Source: a virus
Virus record (IMG/VR): IMGVR_UViG_3300008259_000249
Location: 1 to 26,671 of that record
DNA length: 26,671 bases
Strand: one strand, 5' to 3'
Below are positions 1,312 through 21,918 of the stretch, in pieces. The notes under the pieces are model-generated. The model saw only the letters and a list, made by a program, of their open reading frames with translations, had not been told where the DNA came from and ran no database searches. The position numbers and the translations under genes were made by a program. Each line of letters opens with the position of its first letter. The stretch's first letter is position 1.

Positions 1312-1830
1312 ATGTCAGACCTTTTAAAAATTAATGTTAACGACCATGTTGAGAAAAAGGGCAACCTTACTTATTTGAGTTGGGCATGGGCGTGGGCTGA
1401 AGTGCTAAAGATTGACCCCGGCGCACAATGGACGGCACATGAGTGGGACAACAGTCCTGTGATGTACCTGCGAAACGGCACGGCAATGGTTAAGGTCAGC
1501 GTCGAGATTAAGGGCAACATCAAAACTTGTTTGCTGCCTGTGATGGATAACAGAAACAGAGCAATCGTTGACCCAGATGCTTTTGCGGTAAACACCGCGA
1601 CGATGCGTTGCCTGACAAAGGCGATTGCGATGCACGGTTTGGCTCTGTACATTTTTGCGGGTGAAGATTTGCCCGAGGGCGAAAAGGTTGAGCCTAACCT
1701 TGAGGTGTTGGCGCAGATTGCAGCAGCCGCTGACCAGCCCACGCTGCTTACGCTTTTTAAGTCACTTGACGCTGCCACCCGCGCAACGCACATGGATGCT
1801 TTCAGCGCACGCAAAAAGGAGTTGACATGA
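1312..1830 (+). CDS. Single-strand annealing protein, DUF1071/Sak3-like
   Basis: A 172-residue protein. The N-terminal signature GNLTYLSWAWAWA (residues 18-29) is the hallmark of the DUF1071 family, phage recombinases related to the Sak/Erf/Red-beta annealing proteins. These bind single-stranded DNA and anneal complementary strands during phage recombination and end repair. The middle keeps the family pattern of a strand-rich core (ALYIFAGEDLP) after a conserved NTATMRCLTKAIAMHGLALY helix; the C-terminus is a loose helical tail. GAGGAG at 1299-1304 precedes the ATG. An exonuclease and an SSB-like gene follow at once, the standard two-component recombinase arrangement. Function is from family knowledge; annealing activity is not shown by sequence alone. 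Confidence 0.85.
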   Translation: MSDLLKINVNDHVEKKGNLTYLSWAWAWAEVLKIDPGAQWTAHEWDNSPVMYLRNGTAMVKVSVEIKGNIKTCLLPVMDNRNRAIVDPDAFAVNTATMRCLTKAIAMHGLALYIFAGEDLPEGEKVEPNLEVLAQIAAAADQPTLLTLFKSLDAATRATHMDAFSARKKELT

Positions 1831-2180
1831 ATTCTCTATTTGACCGAGCAATTATTATTTTGCAAGCCCTGCCTGCCGTCAAGTTCGTAATTGTATTGCC
1901 TGACGGCACAAAATATACGCAGGGTGATTTGCAACTGGAAACAGCAAAACGCAAACGCCGAAACTTGAAATATCCGATGGGAAGCGTAGCCCTGCATTAC
2001 AAGCCATACATTGCAAGTTTGCAGCCTAAAGGATTGATTGAAATTCCTTTTGATATGTTTGACGGTGAATCTCTGCGGAGCGGCATTGCCTCGCATTGTG
2101 TCGCAATCTGGGGTAAAGGTTCTGTTTTGACTTCAATAAACCGCAGCAAGCGATGCGTTGAAGTATTGAGGCTTGCTTGA
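1827..2180 (+). CDS. Hypothetical protein in recombination operon (117 aa)
   Basis: The ATG at 1827 overlaps the stop of the annealing protein (ATGA), and its own stop overlaps the start of the exonuclease, so it is co-translated with both. The N-terminus resembles a short helical segment followed by a strand (VKFVIVLPDGTKYTQGDL). A basic KRKRR patch comes next, and the C-terminal half is probably beta-rich with a WGKGSVLTSINRSKRCVEV segment that could contact nucleic acid. I do not recognise a family. Its position between two recombination genes suggests an accessory DNA-binding role, which is inference. Confidence 0.7.
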   Translation: MNSLFDRAIIILQALPAVKFVIVLPDGTKYTQGDLQLETAKRKRRNLKYPMGSVALHYKPYIASLQPKGLIEIPFDMFDGESLRSGIASHCVAIWGKGSVLTSINRSKRCVEVLRLA

Positions 2181-2788
2181 TGGAACAGCGTACTGACGAA
2201 TGGTTTGCCGCACGCATTGGCAAGGTCACGGCATCGCGTGTTGCTGATGTCATCGCCAAGACCAAGAGCGGGTATGGCGCAGGTCGCGCTAACTACCTTG
2301 CCGACCTTGTGGTGGAGCGCCTCACGGGTCAGAAGGCGCAAGGGTTTAGTAACGCCGCGATGGAATGGGGTACCCAGACCGAGCCGCAAGCCAGAGCCGC
2401 GTACAGCGCCAAGACGGGCATCTTGGTTGAGGAGGTAGGGTTTATCGACCACCCGACCGTGGCAATGTCTGGAGCCAGCCCTGACGGGTTTGCCGAGGAA
2501 GGTTTGATTGAGGTCAAGTGTCCGAACACCAGCACGATGCTGGAATTCATCCTCGACGGTAAGCCGCCCCAAAAGTATGTGACGCAGATGCAATGGCAGA
2601 TGGCCTGCACCGGCAGACCGTGGTGCGACTTTGTGTCATTCGACCCGCGCCTCCCCGAGCGGTTGCAACTGTTAGTGGTTCGTGTCCCGCGTGACGATGC
2701 TTACATTGCCATGTTGGAAACCGAAGTAAAGAAATTCCTTGCGGAACTTGACGACAATCTCAACAAACTGGAGAAGGTAAGCCTGTGA
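2180..2788 (+). CDS. YqaJ/lambda-type recombination exonuclease
   Basis: A 202-residue PD-(D/E)XK nuclease. The N-terminal RTDEWFAARIGKVTAS matches the YqaJ/lambda exonuclease opening. AMEWG (about residues 60-64) is the next family motif, and the catalytic core reads SPDG (Asp102) followed by IEVKCP (Glu111, Lys113). QMQWQMACTG further on matches the downstream family helix. Such enzymes resect double-stranded ends to give single strands for the annealing protein encoded just upstream. The ATG at 2180 overlaps the preceding stop as TGATG, with GAGG at 2168-2171 as ribosome-binding site. All catalytic residues are present. Confidence 0.93.
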   Translation: MEQRTDEWFAARIGKVTASRVADVIAKTKSGYGAGRANYLADLVVERLTGQKAQGFSNAAMEWGTQTEPQARAAYSAKTGILVEEVGFIDHPTVAMSGASPDGFAEEGLIEVKCPNTSTMLEFILDGKPPQKYVTQMQWQMACTGRPWCDFVSFDPRLPERLQLLVVRVPRDDAYIAMLETEVKKFLAELDDNLNKLEKVSL

Positions 2789-3722: not shown

Positions 3723-4129
3723 AGCGTATCTTCCCGCGAGGCACCAGACCTGACGCGATGGCATCTGTCGTTGCGCGTATGGTGTCTAACCTTGACCCGC
3801 TTAAGACATGGGCGGTCGAGGTCACGGAATGGCGTAGGCCGCGCACCAACCAACAGAACAAGTTTCTGTGGGGCGTGGTGTATCCGTCCATCATCGAAGG
3901 TGGCGGGGAAGCGTTACGCGGATGGAATCGTGACGACTTGCACGATTACTTTCTGGGCGAGTGTTTTGGATGGGAGACGCTGGAGGGGTTTGGGCGTAAG
4001 CGTATGCGACCGCTCAAGCGTTCCTCGGCGCTCAACAAACAAGAGTTCAGCGACTACCTGTTGTTCCTTGAAACAAAGTGCATGGACATGGGTATCGTGA
4101 TACCGGAGCCGTCGTATGAACCTGCGTAA
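3719..4129 (+). CDS. ninB: NinB-like recombination protein
   Basis: A 136-residue protein, close to the roughly 146 of lambda NinB (Orf). The family core is clear: WAVEVTEWRRPRTNQQNKF around residues 31-49 matches the RSLDQNRKLWA segment of NinB. The later DDLHDYFLGECFG and SALNKQEFSDYLLFLE segments fit the two C-terminal helices. Lambda Orf binds single-stranded DNA and SSB and replaces host RecFOR in loading recombinase. The ATG at 3719 overlaps the glycosyltransferase stop (ATGA). An upstream extension to 3641 exists only in the overlap with that gene and is not needed. Neighbouring recombination genes support the call. Confidence 0.85.
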   Translation: MKRIFPRGTRPDAMASVVARMVSNLDPLKTWAVEVTEWRRPRTNQQNKFLWGVVYPSIIEGGGEALRGWNRDDLHDYFLGECFGWETLEGFGRKRMRPLKRSSALNKQEFSDYLLFLETKCMDMGIVIPEPSYEPA

Positions 4130-4400
4130 AGAGGCGAGGGGCCGAGGCTGCATGGTGCGGATACCCGAGGTCTGCAACCACAACAGCGAAACCGTGGTGC
4201 TTTGTCACTACAGGCTTGCCGGGGTGTCCGGCATGGGGATGAAGTCCCCTGACCTTATCGGGGCGTGGGCGTGTTCCTCCTGCCACGATGCTATCGACCG
4301 CCGAGCGCACACAGACCTCGACCGCGACTATGTGCGTTTGCTGCATCTGGAGGGGATGGCGCGAACCCTCGCACAACTCAACAGGGAGGGACTACTGTGA
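4116..4400 (+). CDS. YbcO/DUF1364 putative nuclease
   Basis: A 94-residue protein of the DUF1364 family (E. coli prophage YbcO). The N-terminus RKEARGRGCMVRIPEVCNHN, the CHYRLAG segment and the CSSCHDAIDRR motif are all present. Cys12, Cys20, His31, Cys53, Cys56 and His57 are candidate zinc or active-site ligands, in the order seen in HNH-like nucleases. The family often lies beside NinB and is thought to act as a nuclease in phage recombination. The ATG at 4116 has GGAG at 4105-4108 and overlaps ninB by 14 nt. Confidence 0.88.
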   Translation: MNLRKEARGRGCMVRIPEVCNHNSETVVLCHYRLAGVSGMGMKSPDLIGAWACSSCHDAIDRRAHTDLDRDYVRLLHLEGMARTLAQLNREGLL

Positions 4401-5063: not shown

Positions 5064-5134
5064 TGGCGAGTCGTCTAAAGGTCGGACAACGGACTTTGAC
5101 TCCGTGAATGAAGGTTCGATTCCTTCCTCGCCAT
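5064..5134 (+). tRNA. tRNA-Gln (anticodon TTG)
   Basis: A full cloverleaf folds by hand. The acceptor stem TGGCGAG (5064-5070) pairs with CTCGCCA (5127-5133). The D stem is GTCT/GGAC (5073-5076, 5084-5087). The anticodon stem ACGGA/TCCGT (5089-5093, 5101-5105) carries the loop CTTTGAC, giving anticodon TTG at 5096-5098, which reads CAA (Gln). The T stem is GAAGG/CCTTC with loop TTCGATT. The weak U1-A72 pair is typical of glutamine tRNAs. CCA is not encoded, and the discriminator base is T, which is unusual. Its 3' end touches the stop codon of the convergent M15 gene. Confidence 0.92.
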
Positions 5135-5364
5135 CACACCTTGCGCTCGAAGTGCGGGACATCCTTGAAGGACTTCCAGAACCCGCCCCATTGGTTCTTC
5201 GGGTTCAGACTCTGCCAATACTCACCGACCGGGGTGAGCGCAGGCTGCTGCTCCGGGGTGCGTGCAAGTTCGCCGCCCGTGACGACAAAGCCCAACTCGG
5301 TAGCCTTGTTGATGAGTTTGGCGACATCCAGCAGGAACGCCGCCTGTTCTGCTACTAGGCTCAC
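5134..5364 (-). CDS. M15 endolysin remnant with internal deletion
   Basis: A 76-residue protein built from the two ends of an M15 (LAS) peptidase. Residues about 5-38 (AEQAAFLLDVAKLI, TGGELARTPEQQ) match the N-terminus of phage M15 endolysins. Residues about 42-72 (LTPVGEYWQSLNP, WGGFWKSFKDVPHFER) match the C-terminus, including the catalytic Asp and third zinc-ligand His in DVPH. The intervening 35-40 residues, which should hold the SxHxxxxAxDL motif with the other two zinc ligands, are missing in frame. The GTG at 5364 overlaps the holin stop (GTGA), with a perfect AAGGAGG (5372-5378) seven bases upstream, so it is still translated. It is probably inactive as a peptidase unless it works in another way. 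Confidence 0.8.
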   Translation of the reverse strand: MSLVAEQAAFLLDVAKLINKATELGFVVTGGELARTPEQQPALTPVGEYWQSLNPKNQWGGFWKSFKDVPHFERKV

Positions 5365-6815: not shown

Positions 6816-6970
6816 TGTTTTACTTCCTTCTCGTTGGGCAGGCACGGCTCGACCTGCGATTTAAGTTTCTGGAACAGGGGATACGCACCCTGACTGGTCG
6901 GGAGTGAGCCGACGAGGTTCGTCAATGCGACGGCTTCTTCGAGGGTGAGGGTCAGGGTGATGTCTTGCAT
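6812..6970 (-). CDS. Small acidic protein after tail fibre (52 aa)
   Basis: A 52-residue frame starting MQDITLTLTLEEAVAL and containing LVGSLPTSQGAYPLFQKL before a charged C-terminal tail. Its ATG overlaps the fibre stop (TAATG) and its TGA overlaps the next ATG (ATGA), so it fills the gap exactly and is translationally coupled. Small helical proteins with this TLTLEEA start occur between fibre and lysis genes in other phages. Function unknown, possibly a fibre assembly factor. Confidence 0.75.
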   Translation of the reverse strand: MQDITLTLTLEEAVALTNLVGSLPTSQGAYPLFQKLKSQVEPCLPNEKEVKQ

Positions 6971-7728
6971 TACTTGGACTCCAGAGCGGTGACCTTTGCT
7001 TCAAGGGTTTCAATACGCGCCATTGCTTCTTGCAGGGCTTTGATAGCGGCGAAGGTGATGTCCTTTGTATAAACAGTCTTTAGCGGAACACCATCTTCCG
7101 GGGTGTCACCAAACCCGTCAGCGTCAACCCAGACAGGCTCAACGGTTTCAACCTGCTGCGCGATAACGCCAAGGTTTACATCGTCGTGAGTTTGGTCATT
7201 GTATTTGTAGGTGACAATCTCAAGAGCAGAAACCTTGCCCCACATGGACGCGGCCGGAATGATGTCTTTTTTCGTGCGTGCGTCGGACAAGTCAACATTG
7301 TTTGCTTGGTAGTTAGCCAAGCCACCGTTAGCACGGATAGATGCGCGAAGAGCGCCGCTGTCGTAGCAATAAACAAAGTTGCTAGAAGTGTTGTTTGGAG
7401 CAGCCGCAGAATAATTAACCGCCAAACCAAAGGGGGTGCTGCTAGTAGTGTTGCGGACAACAGCGGCCCACTTGTTGTTAGCATCCGCAGACAGCGCATG
7501 AAAGCCAGTAACTCCAGCAACCGCGACCGCAGCCGTGGCCCCAGCCAAAACCTCGCCGCTGCTCAAAATTCTGGCGCGTTCGGTGTTGTTGGTTAAAAAG
7601 TTAATGTAGCGAGTGCTTGCAGCAGAAATTTCAAGATTTGTACTTGCGGCATACACATAACCGGCGCTTGAGTTGCTATTACCAAAAGCAAGAACCGCAT
7701 CCGTTCCAAAGTCAGTGCTGATGTCGTC
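6970..7728 (-). CDS. Tail fibre, C-terminal part with S74 chaperone (second frame)
   Basis: About 252 residues in the -1 frame relative to the upstream fibre frame, with no credible start of its own. They begin as fibre shaft repeats (TDAVLAFGNSNSSAGYVY, NTERARILSSGEVLAG) and end in an intramolecular chaperone of the Peptidase_S74 type. That domain starts with DLSDARTKKDI, whose Ser-Asp is the self-cleavage site, and continues through EIVTYKYND and GVIAQQVETVEP. A final coiled coil, ALQEAMARIETLEAKVTALE, follows. S74 domains trimerise fibres and then cut themselves off. The part is joined to the upstream frame only if a -1 shift occurs near 7728-7731. Confidence 0.85.
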   Translation of the reverse strand, partial: DDISTDFGTDAVLAFGNSNSSAGYVYAASTNLEISAASTRYINFLTNNTERARILSSGEVLAGATAAVAVAGVTGFHALSADANNKWAAVVRNTTSSTPFGLAVNYSAAAPNNTSSNFVYCYDSGALRASIRANGGLANYQANNVDLSDARTKKDIIPAASMWGKVSALEIVTYKYNDQTHDDVNLGVIAQQVETVEPVWVDADGFGDTPEDGVPLKTVYTKDITFAAIKALQEAMARIETLEAKVTALESK

Positions 7729-9218
7729 CCCACCAGCAAATTCCCACTCGCATCCAGCGTCATCGCCTGCGTGAACGAGATGGCGTTGCCTGCGGTGCCG
7801 GAGGGGGCGGTGTGCCAAGAATGATTACCTCCCCCCGAAGGGCCGGTCATCTGATACCGAGCAGCGCCAATCCCGGTGTACTGATAAATCCAGTTTGTCC
7901 CGTTGAACCAAGCACCGTTTGCAACCTGCGTGAAAGTATCCCCCGATGCGGTAGACGCAATTGCTCCGGGGCCAGTAATGTCAAATGACTTGTACCCACC
8001 CGCCCATGCGCGAGGCGTTACGCCCAGACCGAGGCTGCCGGAGGCGTCGAGGCGCATGCGCTCCGACGGGGTAATACCGGTGAAAAAAGTAATCAGTCCA
8101 CCCGTATCTGCTGCCTTGGCAATAACTTGAGTTTCGCGGGTCGCCTCTAAAAACCGCAGGCCGTTTTCGTAAGTGGTGGAAAACTGCGTACCAATAAAAC
8201 GGTTATGGCTTGTTGCCCAAGTCTGGAGGATGTTCCCGGTTACTTCCAACTTCTGACCCGGCGAACTCGTCCCGATGCCGAGGCCCGTCGAGGTGAGGCG
8301 CATTTGTTCGGTAGTGTTGATTCCGAAGACAATATCACCCGCTGACTGCCGCGTGTTGATGGCAAAATCGTCCGTACCGCCACCGCCGATTAACTGATTG
8401 GCTATGCCAATCTCACCAACATTTGTTCCGTTGTGTTGCCACGCCGCATACGCGCCCGTCGCATTGTTGAGCAACAACCCAAGATTTGCCCCGGCTTGAA
8501 ATCTTCCAGTCGTTTCCAACACCGTGCCGTTGAAGGTCAGCGCACTCCCACTCGTCGCCACCTTGCTGCCGTTCAAGTACAACACGCCGTTGGCGGTGCC
8601 GCCGGAGAGAACAGGGTTTGCCGTAAAGGTAGCCACGCCGCCGACATTGAGCGCCGAGGTGATGGACACATTGGCAAAGGTCGCGTTACCGGCGCTGTTC
8701 AACTGCGAGACGACTTGGAAGCGCGTGCCGTCATAGACGACTACCACCACCTCACCGCTCTTGATGTCACCCGCAGCAAGCGCCACAGACCCGTCACGGG
8801 TCACAGCCTTTGCACCCAGCGAGTCGATGTTAAGCGTCACCGCGCCCGTGTTATCGCCTGTAGCGACGAAGTAGAACATCTGTCCGGCAGCGTAGGCGGC
8901 AACCACAGGCGCACCCACAGCCGTGATGGTGTCCGTCCCAGAGACGCTCGTAAGCAGTTTGGTGACCGTAGACTGTACCTGCGACAAGTTCGCAGAGTCC
9001 GTGGCGGCAGAGCCTACCCCAAGCCCCGTGAACTTGTAGGTGGACATCGGGATGTTAGCCGTAACCGTCGTCTGACCGTCCTTCGTAATGGCGGTCGAGA
9101 GGCCGGTGGCAAGGTCAGCCGTCAGGGCGTTAAACGCCGTGGACGAGATGACGGTACCAGAGACGACAGGCTGGCCTGCCGTGTTGATAAGGAATGTACC
9201 CGAGCCATTGAAAGACAT
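7593..9218 (-). CDS. Tail fibre, N-terminal part (first frame)
   Basis: A 541-residue frame, of which the first 497 or so are real fibre. The N-terminus (FNGSGTFLINTAGQPVV, ISSTAFNALTADLATGLSTA) is the usual virion-anchoring start of podophage fibres. The shaft has the repeated pattern GLGIGTSSPGQKLEVTGN, RMRLDASGSLGLGVTP and MTLDASGNLLVGTTS typical of beta-helical shafts. After about residue 497 the frame turns into unlike sequence (ERMRFLLLVIATQ), while the -1 frame carries the shaft on. ATG at 9218 has AGGAG nine bases upstream. The full protein would be about 749 residues and would bind the host surface. Confidence 0.88.
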   Translation of the reverse strand: MSFNGSGTFLINTAGQPVVSGTVISSTAFNALTADLATGLSTAITKDGQTTVTANIPMSTYKFTGLGVGSAATDSANLSQVQSTVTKLLTSVSGTDTITAVGAPVVAAYAAGQMFYFVATGDNTGAVTLNIDSLGAKAVTRDGSVALAAGDIKSGEVVVVVYDGTRFQVVSQLNSAGNATFANVSITSALNVGGVATFTANPVLSGGTANGVLYLNGSKVATSGSALTFNGTVLETTGRFQAGANLGLLLNNATGAYAAWQHNGTNVGEIGIANQLIGGGGTDDFAINTRQSAGDIVFGINTTEQMRLTSTGLGIGTSSPGQKLEVTGNILQTWATSHNRFIGTQFSTTYENGLRFLEATRETQVIAKAADTGGLITFFTGITPSERMRLDASGSLGLGVTPRAWAGGYKSFDITGPGAIASTASGDTFTQVANGAWFNGTNWIYQYTGIGAARYQMTGPSGGGNHSWHTAPSGTAGNAISFTQAMTLDASGNLLVGTTSALTLERMRFLLLVIATQAPVMCMPQVQILKFLLQALATLTF

Positions 9219-18296: not shown

Positions 18297-19124
18297 TCAC
18301 AAGTTGTTTACTTGCGTTAAGGTAGCAATAACTGACGGAATCGCAGGCCAGACGCTTGTGGCGCTGGCCGCAAGGATTCTAACGCTGGTATCGTCTGTTG
18401 CCCACATCAATTCTACATATTGGGTGGGTTCTAACTGGATGATGAAGTTCCACGCCGCAACCGTTCTGGCAGCGGTTCCTTGAATGGCTATCGTGGTGGC
18501 TGTGTTCGGGACATTGGTTCCGTTCTTCCGAAGCCAGATGTAGATGTTCCCAGCGCCGCCAGAAGTCTTGTCCAATTGCGCCGAGAATTGCACATTGTAG
18601 ACACCTTGGAAGTCTGCAACGAGGCGCGAGGTAGGCGAACCGATAGACACGCCGTTGCTGCTGTCGGTGGTGTTAAACACCATGCCGTAGGCGGTATCAA
18701 TCGACGCTGCTGTTTGCGTGGTGGTGTCTGAAAAAGCCCCAAAGTGCAGGATGGGGACAGCGCGACCGAAGCCTTGCAGTTCTTCCCACAGCGAGTTGCT
18801 TACGGCAAAGAACATCCCAGAGCAATCGGGGCTAATCGTGCCGAAGCCTGCATTGTTGATGCTGCTGTTTGCGTCATACGGGTAAACCGTGATGGGGTTA
18901 GCCGTGCTGTTCTTGACGATGACGGTTGCACCCGCCTCGGTCTGCGGCAGCCTTACGCCCGTGCCAACCGCTGCGCTGTTCACATTGGTGTAAACATAGG
19001 TTATCTGCGTAGCGTTACCCGCAGATGTTCCGGCTGCGGTTGCCGTAGAGACACCATCGCCGCAGATGGACACGGTAGCCAGCGAGTTAACACCGGCTCC
19101 TAGCACCCTGCTCGGGATAGCCAT
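18297..19124 (-). CDS. Capsid decoration/head-fibre-like protein
   Basis: A 275-residue beta-rich protein. The first half is a Thr/Ala/Asn-rich virion domain (TGVRLPQTEAGATVIVKN, TVYPYDANSSINNAG). The second half reads like a TNF/C1q-like jelly roll: YNVQFSAQLDKTSGGAGNIY, IWLRKNGTNVP and VELMWATDDTSVRIL follow the strand order of that fold. Such proteins decorate capsids or form head fibres. The position among capsid genes fits. The ATG at 19124 overlaps the stop of the DUF115-like gene. Confidence 0.65.
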   Translation of the reverse strand: MAIPSRVLGAGVNSLATVSICGDGVSTATAAGTSAGNATQITYVYTNVNSAAVGTGVRLPQTEAGATVIVKNSTANPITVYPYDANSSINNAGFGTISPDCSGMFFAVSNSLWEELQGFGRAVPILHFGAFSDTTTQTAASIDTAYGMVFNTTDSSNGVSIGSPTSRLVADFQGVYNVQFSAQLDKTSGGAGNIYIWLRKNGTNVPNTATTIAIQGTAARTVAAWNFIIQLEPTQYVELMWATDDTSVRILAASATSVWPAIPSVIATLTQVNNL

Positions 19125-19897
19125 CAGGCCACCATGTCGAGCGCGTGGCGCTCCTTGATGATGGCGGCAATGAGGCCGGGGCCGACCGCCTCCACGGTGA
19201 TGTCAGGCATCACGCTGTAAATCATCTGGAATTCGTTAGCCTGCTGCGCCATCGCAGCATTGCAGGTGAACTTGCGTTTCTCAACGCCTACATACACATC
19301 CATCGTCGGGCCGGTCATTTCGCCCGTAAACCGCTTGATGCCATCGGCACGGTTGCAACTGTCGTAACCGTACAACACAAACTTGCGGAACCCGAAAAGG
19401 TATCCGATGTTGATGGCACGCATACCCGAGGTCGTGCCGCCGCCGACTGCAAGTTTGCCTGCGCCAAGCGCCTTGAACTCCGGGCCTTCCGTCCATGAGT
19501 GCCACAGCACAACCTTGCGCTCTTTCAGCGTGTCAAAGGTGGCGGGAGGGCAGCGGGAGGCAACGAGATAGGTCGTGTGCGCGTTATGGCGCTGTATACC
19601 GCTTGTACGGTCACGCGGGTCGAGGTTAACCCACAGGTCAGGCTCGATGCCGTTCTCGCACAGGAAGTCGTGTGCGGCCTTTACAGCGACGATGGGGCGA
19701 CCAGCCTTCTGGTGCGCCCTGATTTCTTCAACATAGTCGGGCATTGACCACCCACTCGCTACACACACGAATGTTCCATCGTGGGTGAAGAGAGCGGGGG
19801 CCAACTCTGGCAACCCACGGGCAAGCGACGAACGAATGTTGGAACAGAGTTCCTCCGGTTCGCCAGCCGCCTGCACCGTGAGTTCCAGTTTTCGCAT
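19124..19897 (-). CDS. DUF115/MptE-like protein
   Basis: A 257-residue protein. The Rossmann-like core FVCVASGWSMPDYVEEIRAH, PIVAVKAAHDFLCENGI and PDLWVNLDPRD matches the DUF115 family, named for 6-hydroxymethylpterin pyrophosphokinase MptE and bacterial motility accessory factors that add sugars to flagellin. GGGTTSGMRAINIGYLFG and FVLYGYDSC continue the pattern. Proteins of this family are common in phage capsid clusters, where their role is unknown. A sugar-transfer or nucleotide-sugar-binding role on virion proteins would fit, particularly with a GT8-like gene in the early operon. Confidence 0.75.
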   Translation of the reverse strand: MRKLELTVQAAGEPEELCSNIRSSLARGLPELAPALFTHDGTFVCVASGWSMPDYVEEIRAHQKAGRPIVAVKAAHDFLCENGIEPDLWVNLDPRDRTSGIQRHNAHTTYLVASRCPPATFDTLKERKVVLWHSWTEGPEFKALGAGKLAVGGGTTSGMRAINIGYLFGFRKFVLYGYDSCNRADGIKRFTGEMTGPTMDVYVGVEKRKFTCNAAMAQQANEFQMIYSVMPDITVEAVGPGLIAAIIKERHALDMVA

Positions 19898-20396: not shown

Positions 20397-21918
20397 TCAG
20401 TTAATCAACACGCCGCAGAACTGCGGGCCGGAGGAGGTAAGGTTACCCGCCCAGCCAATCAGTTTCACAATCATTCTGTTACTTCGCCTTTCGGCTACTG
20501 ACCACCCTTTCGGATGGCGGGGCAACCTCTTCGGGTCACCCTCTGCGGCTTCTTTGGTTATACCGCAGTTCAGACTATCGCATGACAAGCCTTTTTCGCT
20601 TGTCCCCTCTCACTTAGTCGTTCAGCCTGCTTTCGCTTGGCCCCTGTTACCCGCTTCCGGGCTTCCAAGTCAATCAGAGAGGGTTTATAGACGCCATTAG
20701 TGAATCGTAGGTTTAGCGTCTTGGTTGACAGCCTGACGGTCGCCGCCAATCGGGACAAAGTTTCTGTCCTTGTGGGGGCGGAACATCAGGTACTTGGTGT
20801 TGAGGAACCACATATGGTTCGCGTTACCGACACCGCCGTTATACGACGACGAGCCGATACCACCGTCAAGCACCACATCCGAAGCCATGCCAGCGCCGAA
20901 ATACTTCAGCGAAGCAAAGCCAGCACCAGCCATGCCCGAACCGGAGTCCGTGATGCGCTGGATAGCCTGCAACGACTGCAAGTAGAACTTGTAGTAGTTG
21001 TTGTCGGCAACGATGAGGTCAGGCTTGTCGGTACCGCGAATCAACTGAACCGCAACCGCATCCATGTAACCTTGGATGTTGCTGCTGGTCACAGCGCCCG
21101 TGCCGTCGCCAGTCGCCGAGAAGGCAACCGAACGCCAGAACTGCCACACCTGACGGTTGATGCCGCCGTAGGTGCCGGTGGACGGGCTGTCAGGCACAGC
21201 GGCAGCAAGACCCGTGAGGTTCTTACCCGCGTTGCCGGTGCCGTCACCGTAGAGGTCACCGCTGATACGGTTCGCCAGTTGCGCCTCGGCAACCTCCATA
21301 CGACCGTCGAGCAGGTCGATGATGGCTTCCTTACCCGAGTTTTGAATCATTTCAAGACCCGAGATGGACACAGCAGACGCATACTGCGTGATGCTGAACT
21401 GCGCCGCACTACCAAATGTTCACAAGGTTTCGTTACTTCCTTGCCGCCCTTTCGGACTGCTGCATATTTCTATGCAGAGCAGACTATCTCACAACCCTTT
21501 CGGGTTCTTTGCACTTCGAGCCACTTGGCCCTACGAGGAGTCACCCTCTAGTCGTTACGCCTTCCCTTTCGGGCTTGGCTCGGTGTTGCCTTCAACTAAA
21601 TGGTCAGGGTTCCACCGAATTCACAAAGTTCATTCAATGCAAATTGCTTTGCAAGGCCACTAGTATGTCAATGGGACTATTCTGACCGACATTCAGCACC
21701 TCGTAACCCGAATAGGAATTCGTGTTGTTGGTGGTGGTGTCGTTGTACATGATTTCTTGCAAAATCACATTACCGCCCGAGAATGTTTTGACATTCCCGC
21801 GCTCTTTCAGTCGACGAAGCAACGCATTGTTGTTCGTGACATTATCCGCGAGTTCACCGCTACGGGATTGGATGTTAGTGGCGATGATATCGCTGATACT
21901 GGAATTGGCATAAGCCAT
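20397..21918 (-). CDS. Major capsid protein, split by two group I introns
   Basis: Three exons: 21671-21918 (248 nt), 20715-21411 (697 nt) and 20397-20471 (75 nt) join to 1020 nt, a continuous 339-residue protein. The N-terminus is MAYANSSISDIIATNIQSRS, the middle has ALLRRLKERGNVKTFSGGNV, and the C-terminus is IVKLIGWAGN ending in CGVLIN. Exon 1 ends in NSPI and exon 2 continues SAAQFSITQY. Exon 2 ends in DRQAVNQDA and exon 3 starts IVKLIG; both junctions restore sequence familiar from this podophage capsid family. Without splicing, translation stops after 94 residues. The gene follows the scaffold gene, and the ATG has AGGAG eight bases upstream. It assembles the shell around the scaffold. 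Confidence 0.9.
20472..20714 (-). ncRNA. Group I intron 2 in capsid gene (243 nt)
   Basis: The exon before it ends in U (20715) and the intron ends in G (20472). P1: exon AGACGCU (20721-20715) pairs with internal guide GGCGUCU (20695-20689), seven pairs with the required U-G at the splice site. P10: the 3' exon AUUG pairs with UAAU (20699-20696). P3: CCCUCUC (20683-20677) pairs with GAGAGGG (20611-20605). P7: GACUA (20619-20615) pairs with UAGUC (20577-20573). P8: GACAAGC pairs with GCUUGUC (20604-20598, 20590-20584). The order P3, P7, P3', P8, P7' is the group I core. P9 hairpins with GAAA loops follow. There is no ORF. Confidence 0.92.
21412..21670 (-). ncRNA. Group I intron 1 in capsid gene (259 nt)
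   Basis: Exon 1 ends in U (21671) and the intron ends in G (21412). P1: exon CCAU plus intron UG pair with UAGUGG (21662-21657), with U-G at the splice site. P10: 3' exon UAGU pairs with ACUA (21664-21661). P3: CUUUG (21628-21624) pairs with CAAAG (21511-21507). P7: GACUA (21553-21549) pairs with UAGUC (21486-21482). P8: AACCC-GAAA-GGGUU (21506-21493). Between the P7 5' strand and P3' lie two extra hairpins (GAGG/CCUC and GGGCC/GGCUC), like the P7.1/P7.2 of subgroup IA introns, common in phage. There is no ORF. Confidence 0.9.

Follow-up and report, generated by a model that had tools for sequence, protein, structure and literature searches.

The major capsid gene of an uncultured phage is split by two ORF-less group I introns from separate lineages

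The major capsid protein (MCP) gene on the minus strand of the window (the whole stretch of DNA analysed here, a 26,671-base virus record) is interrupted by two insertions that are very probably group I introns of separate lineages, excised by splicing and spreading between related phages. The window is probably a genome fragment, because the portal frame reaches near its end and no terminase was recognised in it. The gene consists of exon 1 (21671-21918, with the ATG at 21918 and the 3' end CCCAT), exon 2 (20715-21411, TAGTGCG...GACGCT) and exon 3 (20397-20471, ATTGTGAAACTG to the stop codon), all on the minus strand and all continuous in relatives. Between them lie intron 1 (21412-21670, 259 nt, TGACATACTA...ACATTTGG) and intron 2 (20472-20714, 243 nt, AAACCTACGA...AACAGAATG), both ORF-less and on the same strand. 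Without splicing, translation of the capsid gene ends after 94 codons, and joining 21918-21671, 21411-20715 and 20471-20397 yields 339 codons plus a stop. That codon count had been proposed in a first-pass annotation made from the sequence, and the joined exons do give an intact product, which matches phrog_9953 ('major head protein') over residues 5-338 with a profile E-value of 3.9e-104. Its identity to the MCPs of Myxococcus phage Mx8 and Stenotrophomonas phage BUCT555 is about 50%, and among known phages no close MCP was found, the best identity being 51%; for the introns, too, known phages yielded only distant kin, which we used to see what genes host them. An MptE-like gene (19124-19897, minus strand; PF01973, E 9e-15) stands in the structural cluster right after the capsid genes.

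At least 594 IMG/VR stretches encode relatives of this capsid protein, and we kept the best 80. In most of these 80 the capsid gene is uninterrupted over 338 or 339 codons, with exact empty sites in, e.g., L002-L008; ten carry a 243-nt insertion at the second site as their sole insertion, and one more ends within that insertion. Intron 1 is likewise absent from the intron-less relatives. Since the relatives' gene is continuous at the aligned points, both stretches are insertions in an otherwise intact gene. The alignment to uninterrupted capsids, which the first-pass annotation had suggested as a check, places both insertion points at the positions it gave, with a one-base ambiguity at each that is settled by the U/G rule, so that its coordinates, frame and splice-site bases proved right to the base. 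The protein from the joined exons is 99% identical to that of uninterrupted relatives over the best segment, and L092, from another metagenome, has a capsid gene identical to that of the window.

Intron 1 is detected by the Rfam group I model RF00028 at 56.2 bits (cut-off 50) over 21682-21460, model positions 1-253; sub-threshold Rfam matches to isrG and mir-790 were disregarded. Its splice sites read CCAU|UGAC...UUUGG|UAGU, with U before the intron and G at its end. The guide ACUAGUGG (21657-21664, minus strand) pairs on both sides, GUGG with CCAU of exon 1 (P1, with a terminal U.G) and ACUA with UAGU of exon 2 (P10), so that the leader offers 4 bp of P1 and 5 bp of P10. The coding sequence has 217 T-ending positions, counting the real splice site, and 8 of them match this total; the P1/P10 complementarity of intron 1 is not decisive by itself. 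An exact 18-base core pattern retrieved 13 IMG/VR stretches with relatives of intron 1. Six of them (L082, L084, L085, L089, L091 and L092) carry it at this very site of the capsid gene with 97-100% identity; others are related introns elsewhere, in P22-like coat genes (L086, L093 and L090) and in another capsid-like gene (L087). L087 and L090 contain an ORF within the intron that looks HNH-like; these capsid and HNH labels were all given by reading. Another related intron interrupts the DNA polymerase gene of phage phiTE. Between P7 and P3, intron 1 has additional sequence that is able to form hairpins and is missing from intron 2, which, on a reading of the sequence, suggests that intron 1 belongs to subgroup IA.

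Intron 2 has no match to RF00028 even at E 10, and its relatives in L216 (24.7 bits) and L220 (20.8 bits) score below the cut-off. Copies of intron 2 with 94-100% identity occupy the corresponding site in many contigs. The two minus-strand matches to RF00028 that had been predicted for the window therefore materialised for intron 1 alone. Nevertheless, the exon again ends in U and the intron in G, as had been noted for both introns, and the guide UAAU-GGCGUCU (20689-20699, minus strand) pairs with AGACGCU of exon 2 through GGCGUCU (P1, with a terminal U.G) and with AUUG of exon 3 through UAAU (P10). The resulting total of 7 bp in P1 and 4 bp in P10 is reached at only 1 of the 217 T-ending positions, i.e., the real site; the pairing with flanking exons claimed for both introns thus holds for both, with the difference in specificity given above. 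The catalytic core P3-P8 occupies 20571-20686 on the minus strand, with P3 formed by 20683-20677 and 20611-20605 and P7 by 20619-20615 and 20577-20573.

The 18-base core CTGATTGACTTGGAAGCC retrieved at least 120 IMG/VR stretches with relatives of intron 2, from which 75 distinct cores were aligned. RNAalifold, run without structure input, recovered P3, P4, P5, P6 and P8 from these cores, and under the named structure, with the P7 pseudoknot included, 97.4% of cells are paired. Double changes occur in 18 of the 31 pairs, the cells with double changes number 338 versus 87 in shuffles, and the pairing collapses once partners are slid by one column. The sole variable pair of P7 (103-151) is AU in 54 and GC in 21 of the 75 sequences with no exception, whereas P4 and most of P7 are invariant, so that those helices rest on position. 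When members of the family sit in other genes, e.g., the P22-like coat gene of L125 or the ribonucleotide reductase gene of L126, the P1 guide differs and, judged by eye, still fits the exon with a U.G at the splice site. The model R1, built from this alignment with the window's own intron among its rows, gives a single match in the window (20686-20571, 109 bits), with none elsewhere in it or in the intron-less or intron-1-only loci searched. This strong core covariation despite the lack of an Rfam match indicates that it is the profile, not the structure, that fails, and that intron 2, by its sequence, belongs to a group I lineage that the Rfam model overlooks. The P3, P7 and P8 that the first-pass annotation had assigned to intron 2 thus fall within a covarying group I core, and its central proposal of two ORF-less group I introns in a single MCP gene stands as the best reading in view of the RF00028 match, the covariation, the P1 guides that shift with the exon and the empty sites.

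Both introns are polymorphic among related phages and, from sequence comparison, appear horizontally mobile between them. All four genotypes (neither intron, either one, or both) exist among relatives, and the two introns segregate independently. On an exon tree of 109 capsid genes (exons 1 and 2), a quick tree on which gain and loss are indistinguishable, intron 2 changes its presence 16 times and intron 1 four times. The sequence around site 1 differs with the presence of intron 1. In 7 of 7 carrier alleles, among them those of the window and of L092, which are identical, the flanks are AGTCCCAT|TAGTGCGGC with Ser-81 and Ser-84 both encoded by AGT, and AGT/AGT occurs in 0 of 104 alleles without intron 1; these are counts of alleles across kin, not of independent events. 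L112, an allele free of intron 1, differs from the window by 19 SNPs, 7 of which are no more than 8 nt away from site 1; L089 and L008 differ from each other at these seven positions as well. Although UAGU serves P10, the AGT of Ser-81 lies outside the P1 that was found, and selection alone is therefore an inadequate explanation; on this sequence evidence we read the AGT/AGT flanks as a probable co-conversion footprint of intron 1. At site 2, GCT, with U at position -1, precedes the site in 36 of 36 carriers of intron 2 versus 13 of 66 empty alleles. Because P1 needs a U at -1, this may reflect selection, co-conversion or both. Here, too, kin are counted separately, and as a Fisher p value takes no account of relatedness, we do not read it as a probability.

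The two introns share the core motifs AACGACTA and ATAGTCTG, as would be expected if intron 2 had arisen from intron 1 by duplication within the gene, but such motifs occur in group I introns at large. RF00028 detects intron 1 alone and R1 detects intron 2 alone, and their nearest kin differ, the introns of P22-like coat genes and of the phiTE DNA polymerase for intron 1 and a separate large family for intron 2. On these grounds the two belong to different lineages, and the gene was invaded twice; with relatives carrying either intron without the other, a duplication is extremely improbable. A broken capsid gene, with insertions that are decaying or do not splice, is in our view also very improbable. 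Excision of the introns is read from sequence, which leaves room for such a view, but the reading frame continues across both junctions, the exons encode a protein nearly identical to that of uninterrupted relatives despite diverged fourfold sites, the intron cores hold their pairing through double changes, and the allele recurs unaltered in L092 from another metagenome, next to many independent carriers.

The remaining alternatives concern how the introns came to be distributed. Intron 1 of the window is 97.3% identical to that of L082, where exons 1 and 2 are 78-79% identical, and intron 2 is 94.7-95.5% identical to that of L096, L102 and L122, where exon 2 is 81-82% and fourfold-degenerate sites are 55-59% identical. 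For intron 2, a structurally constrained sequence that is inherited vertically and lost time and again could produce such a picture without any horizontal movement: group I cores are constrained, the site is old, as deeply branching members of the gene family (L154, L217 and others) have an intron there, and parsimony is blind to gain versus loss. However, intron 2 at the same site falls to 78-82% identity in somewhat more distant carriers where exon 2 is 71-76% identical (L154, L167, L169, L217, L222, L229 and L240), against 94-96% where exon 2 is 80-82% identical. Constraint is hence an unlikely cause of the near-identity, which in the latter carriers covers loops as well as core, and we regard purely vertical descent as unlikely. 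A serious rival is that the introns do not home at all and are passive passengers on pieces of the MCP gene that co-infecting phages exchange by ordinary homologous recombination. The plus/minus pair L016 and L003 is identical over 4,000 nt upstream and 945 nt of the gene; the differences are the intron itself, two SNPs within exon 3 and further changes downstream. Homing that left these two SNPs as its footprint is not proven by the pair, which we use only as an example of plus and minus alleles: L120, whose exons 1 and 2 are exactly those of L003 and L016, is over 283 nt from exon 3 on 95.8% identical to L003 and 100% identical to the intron-plus L111, so that a crossover at the intron explains the pair equally well. 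We also rejected the idea that L003 descends from L016 through a spliced cDNA, because the two differ downstream. Exon 2 of the window is 97% and exon 1 88% identical to those of L085, which likewise fits exchange of gene pieces, and the window encodes two recombination proteins, Sak for annealing and the exonuclease YqaJ. On the other hand, in L082 for intron 1 and in L096, L102 and L122 for intron 2, both flanking exons are 78-87% identical to the window and the intron is 95-97% identical; diverged exons on both sides of a near-identical intron imply a transferred tract close to the intron itself, and the AGT/AGT footprint is local too. Passive shuffling as the route of spread is possible, if somewhat doubtful.

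In the mechanism that we favour, i.e., two mobile introns of separate origin, each intron would fold around its P3-P7 core, with the P1 helix and its U.G pair setting the 5' splice site, and the terminal G together with P10 setting the 3' splice site. An external guanosine would start the two transesterifications that excise the intron and restore the 339-codon message. The two lineages would have entered the capsid gene separately and would spread at the DNA level, an intron-plus allele converting an intron-minus allele in co-infected cells, with flanking exon bases travelling along with the intron. Because neither intron encodes an endonuclease, the break would most likely be supplied in trans, or else the introns would move by general recombination in an often-exchanged gene. 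The comparisons above show the insertions with their exact empty sites, the restored frame, the group I structure, the horizontal spread and the footprint in the flanks. We infer both splicing in vivo and the agent of mobility from the sequences, and it is a fair expectation that virion production depends on splicing.

No homing endonuclease ORF was found inside either intron, nor any homing endonuclease among those genes of the window that were compared with Pfam. The loci with an intron have 38 extra ORFs, which include a single HNH_3 ORF (L091:968-1471, E 2.3e-13); it is not in the window, and the contig that encodes it carries intron 1. By its sequence it is only a candidate for a trans-homing endonuclease. 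The YbcO nuclease of the window (4116-4400) was also considered as a trans-acting candidate and set aside, as nothing links it to the introns. Near the start of a portal gene, L171 (4300-5700) has two introns of the intron 2 type with an HNH-like ORF, recognised by reading, directly upstream, possibly a trans-acting endonuclease. Several relatives of intron 2 (L129, L130, L137, L148, L157, L161 and others) have extra sequence in the P6 region, in which a zinc-ribbon, HNH-like frame starts in some, such as L148 and L157 (by reading), and these extended introns may be the endonuclease-bearing form of the family. The Sak single-strand annealing protein and the YqaJ exonuclease form a recombination module at 1312-2788 (plus strand) of the window, which bears on the frequent exchange of the capsid gene. 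In the contig IMGVR_UViG_3300034018_000027 (L109/L114) the same capsid intron lies near both ends, 34,293 bp apart; we do not take these copies as two genes, since they look like end redundancy, and their spacing suggests a genome of about 34 kb for that phage group.

To see which genes host the intron 2 lineage, we surveyed 91 family members with a complete core among the matches listed from one exact 18-mer, grouping their exons by BLAST (single-linkage) and naming group representatives by PHROGs; contigs in this sample can be related. At least 72 of the 91 lie in MCP genes of about five capsid families, namely P22-like coat genes (phrog_283, 25), phrog_1357-type MCP genes (25), the Mx8-like MCP group (phrog_9953, 16), a phrog_14242 group (5) and phrog_1328 (1), the phrog_14242 label being the weakest (one member E 1.6e-7, another without a match). 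Five are in ribonucleotide reductase genes (named by reading), two in portal genes and three beside a gene that follows the phrog_1357-type MCP, and nine are without a named host gene. Several introns per gene also recur. The P22-like coat genes of L220 (6155-6985) and L216 (3389-5082), both on the minus strand, have three introns of the intron 2 family each with short exons between them, the third of L216 having been detected with R1; L201 has two R1 matches in one gene, labelled capsid by reading, and the capsid gene of L085 has two introns. Together with the published crAss-like cases (PMC7886860), these make the earlier description of two group I introns per capsid gene as uncommon too strong. 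It is quite possible, though short of an even chance, that this is a widespread, mostly ORF-less and Rfam-invisible lineage specialised on several unrelated MCP families, at two or three introns per gene, and homing by a nuclease acting in trans.

Introns in phage capsid genes have precedents. CrAss-like phages of the Zeta and Delta groups have MCP introns, with five ORF fragments in cMAG OLRF01000054 (PMC7886860), and resemble the window in having several group I introns per MCP gene in uncultured phages; they were, however, detected via intron-encoded endonuclease domains, whereas those of the window are ORF-less, 259 and 243 nt long and in another capsid family. Capsid introns are also known from mycobacteriophage LittleE, with splicing confirmed by RT-PCR, and from lactococcal phage Tuc2009 (PMC3706429). 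Like those of the window, they interrupt the MCP gene, follow a U and terminate in G, and plus and minus alleles occur among close relatives, but each of these genes has a single intron, which in LittleE spans about 819 bp with a putative homing endonuclease, instead of two ORF-less ones. In Jug phages, small group I introns averaging about 206 nt are numerous in each genome, and splicing of 37 of 76 is backed by metatranscriptomes (PMC12363816); these are huge gut phages with introns in genes such as terL, nrdD and DNA polymerase, in contrast to the MCP here. The P22-like coat gene of Caudoviricetes sp. ctn9Y15 (MW202674) contains an intron 74% identical to intron 2 over 210 nt, equally ORF-less in its core and splitting a coat gene, but in an unrelated coat family and at another insertion site, in a record without intron annotation. 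In collaborative (trans) homing, an ORF-less phage group I intron moves if a free-standing endonuclease cuts its insertion site (PMC3984707). The introns of the window are ORF-less like that one, and trans homing by a protein of the L091 HNH_3 type is a hypothesis that we put forward on this parallel.

The mechanism is that of ordinary group I introns, and the interest lies in the lineage, its host-gene bias and its spread without an encoded enzyme. A 2025 paper reported that phage group I introns prefer genes of nucleotide synthesis and DNA metabolism and called this pattern mysterious (PMC12350094); with at least 72 of 91 sampled members of one lineage in MCP genes, such a preference is not general. 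In the open-access papers searched we found no description of an Rfam-invisible, mostly ORF-less lineage concentrated in several capsid families, nor of a single MCP gene that hosts introns from two lineages and whose alleles segregate, and this silence is weak evidence. The plus and minus alleles in near-identical phages make it testable how introns move without an endonuclease gene, and how costly it is for a phage to splice the message of a highly expressed late gene. Where such introns go unrecognised, they split MCP genes and thereby disturb capsid annotation and the MCP-based classification of metagenomic phages.

Two further features of the window concern its annotation. Overlapping minus-strand frames at 6970-9218 (9218-7593 and 7818-6970, the latter with a Peptidase_S74 chaperone domain) resemble a single tail-fibre gene broken by a frameshift, either genuine or a sequence error. 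A tRNA-Gln (TTG) gene at 5064-5135 (plus strand) lies where the early and late gene blocks meet.
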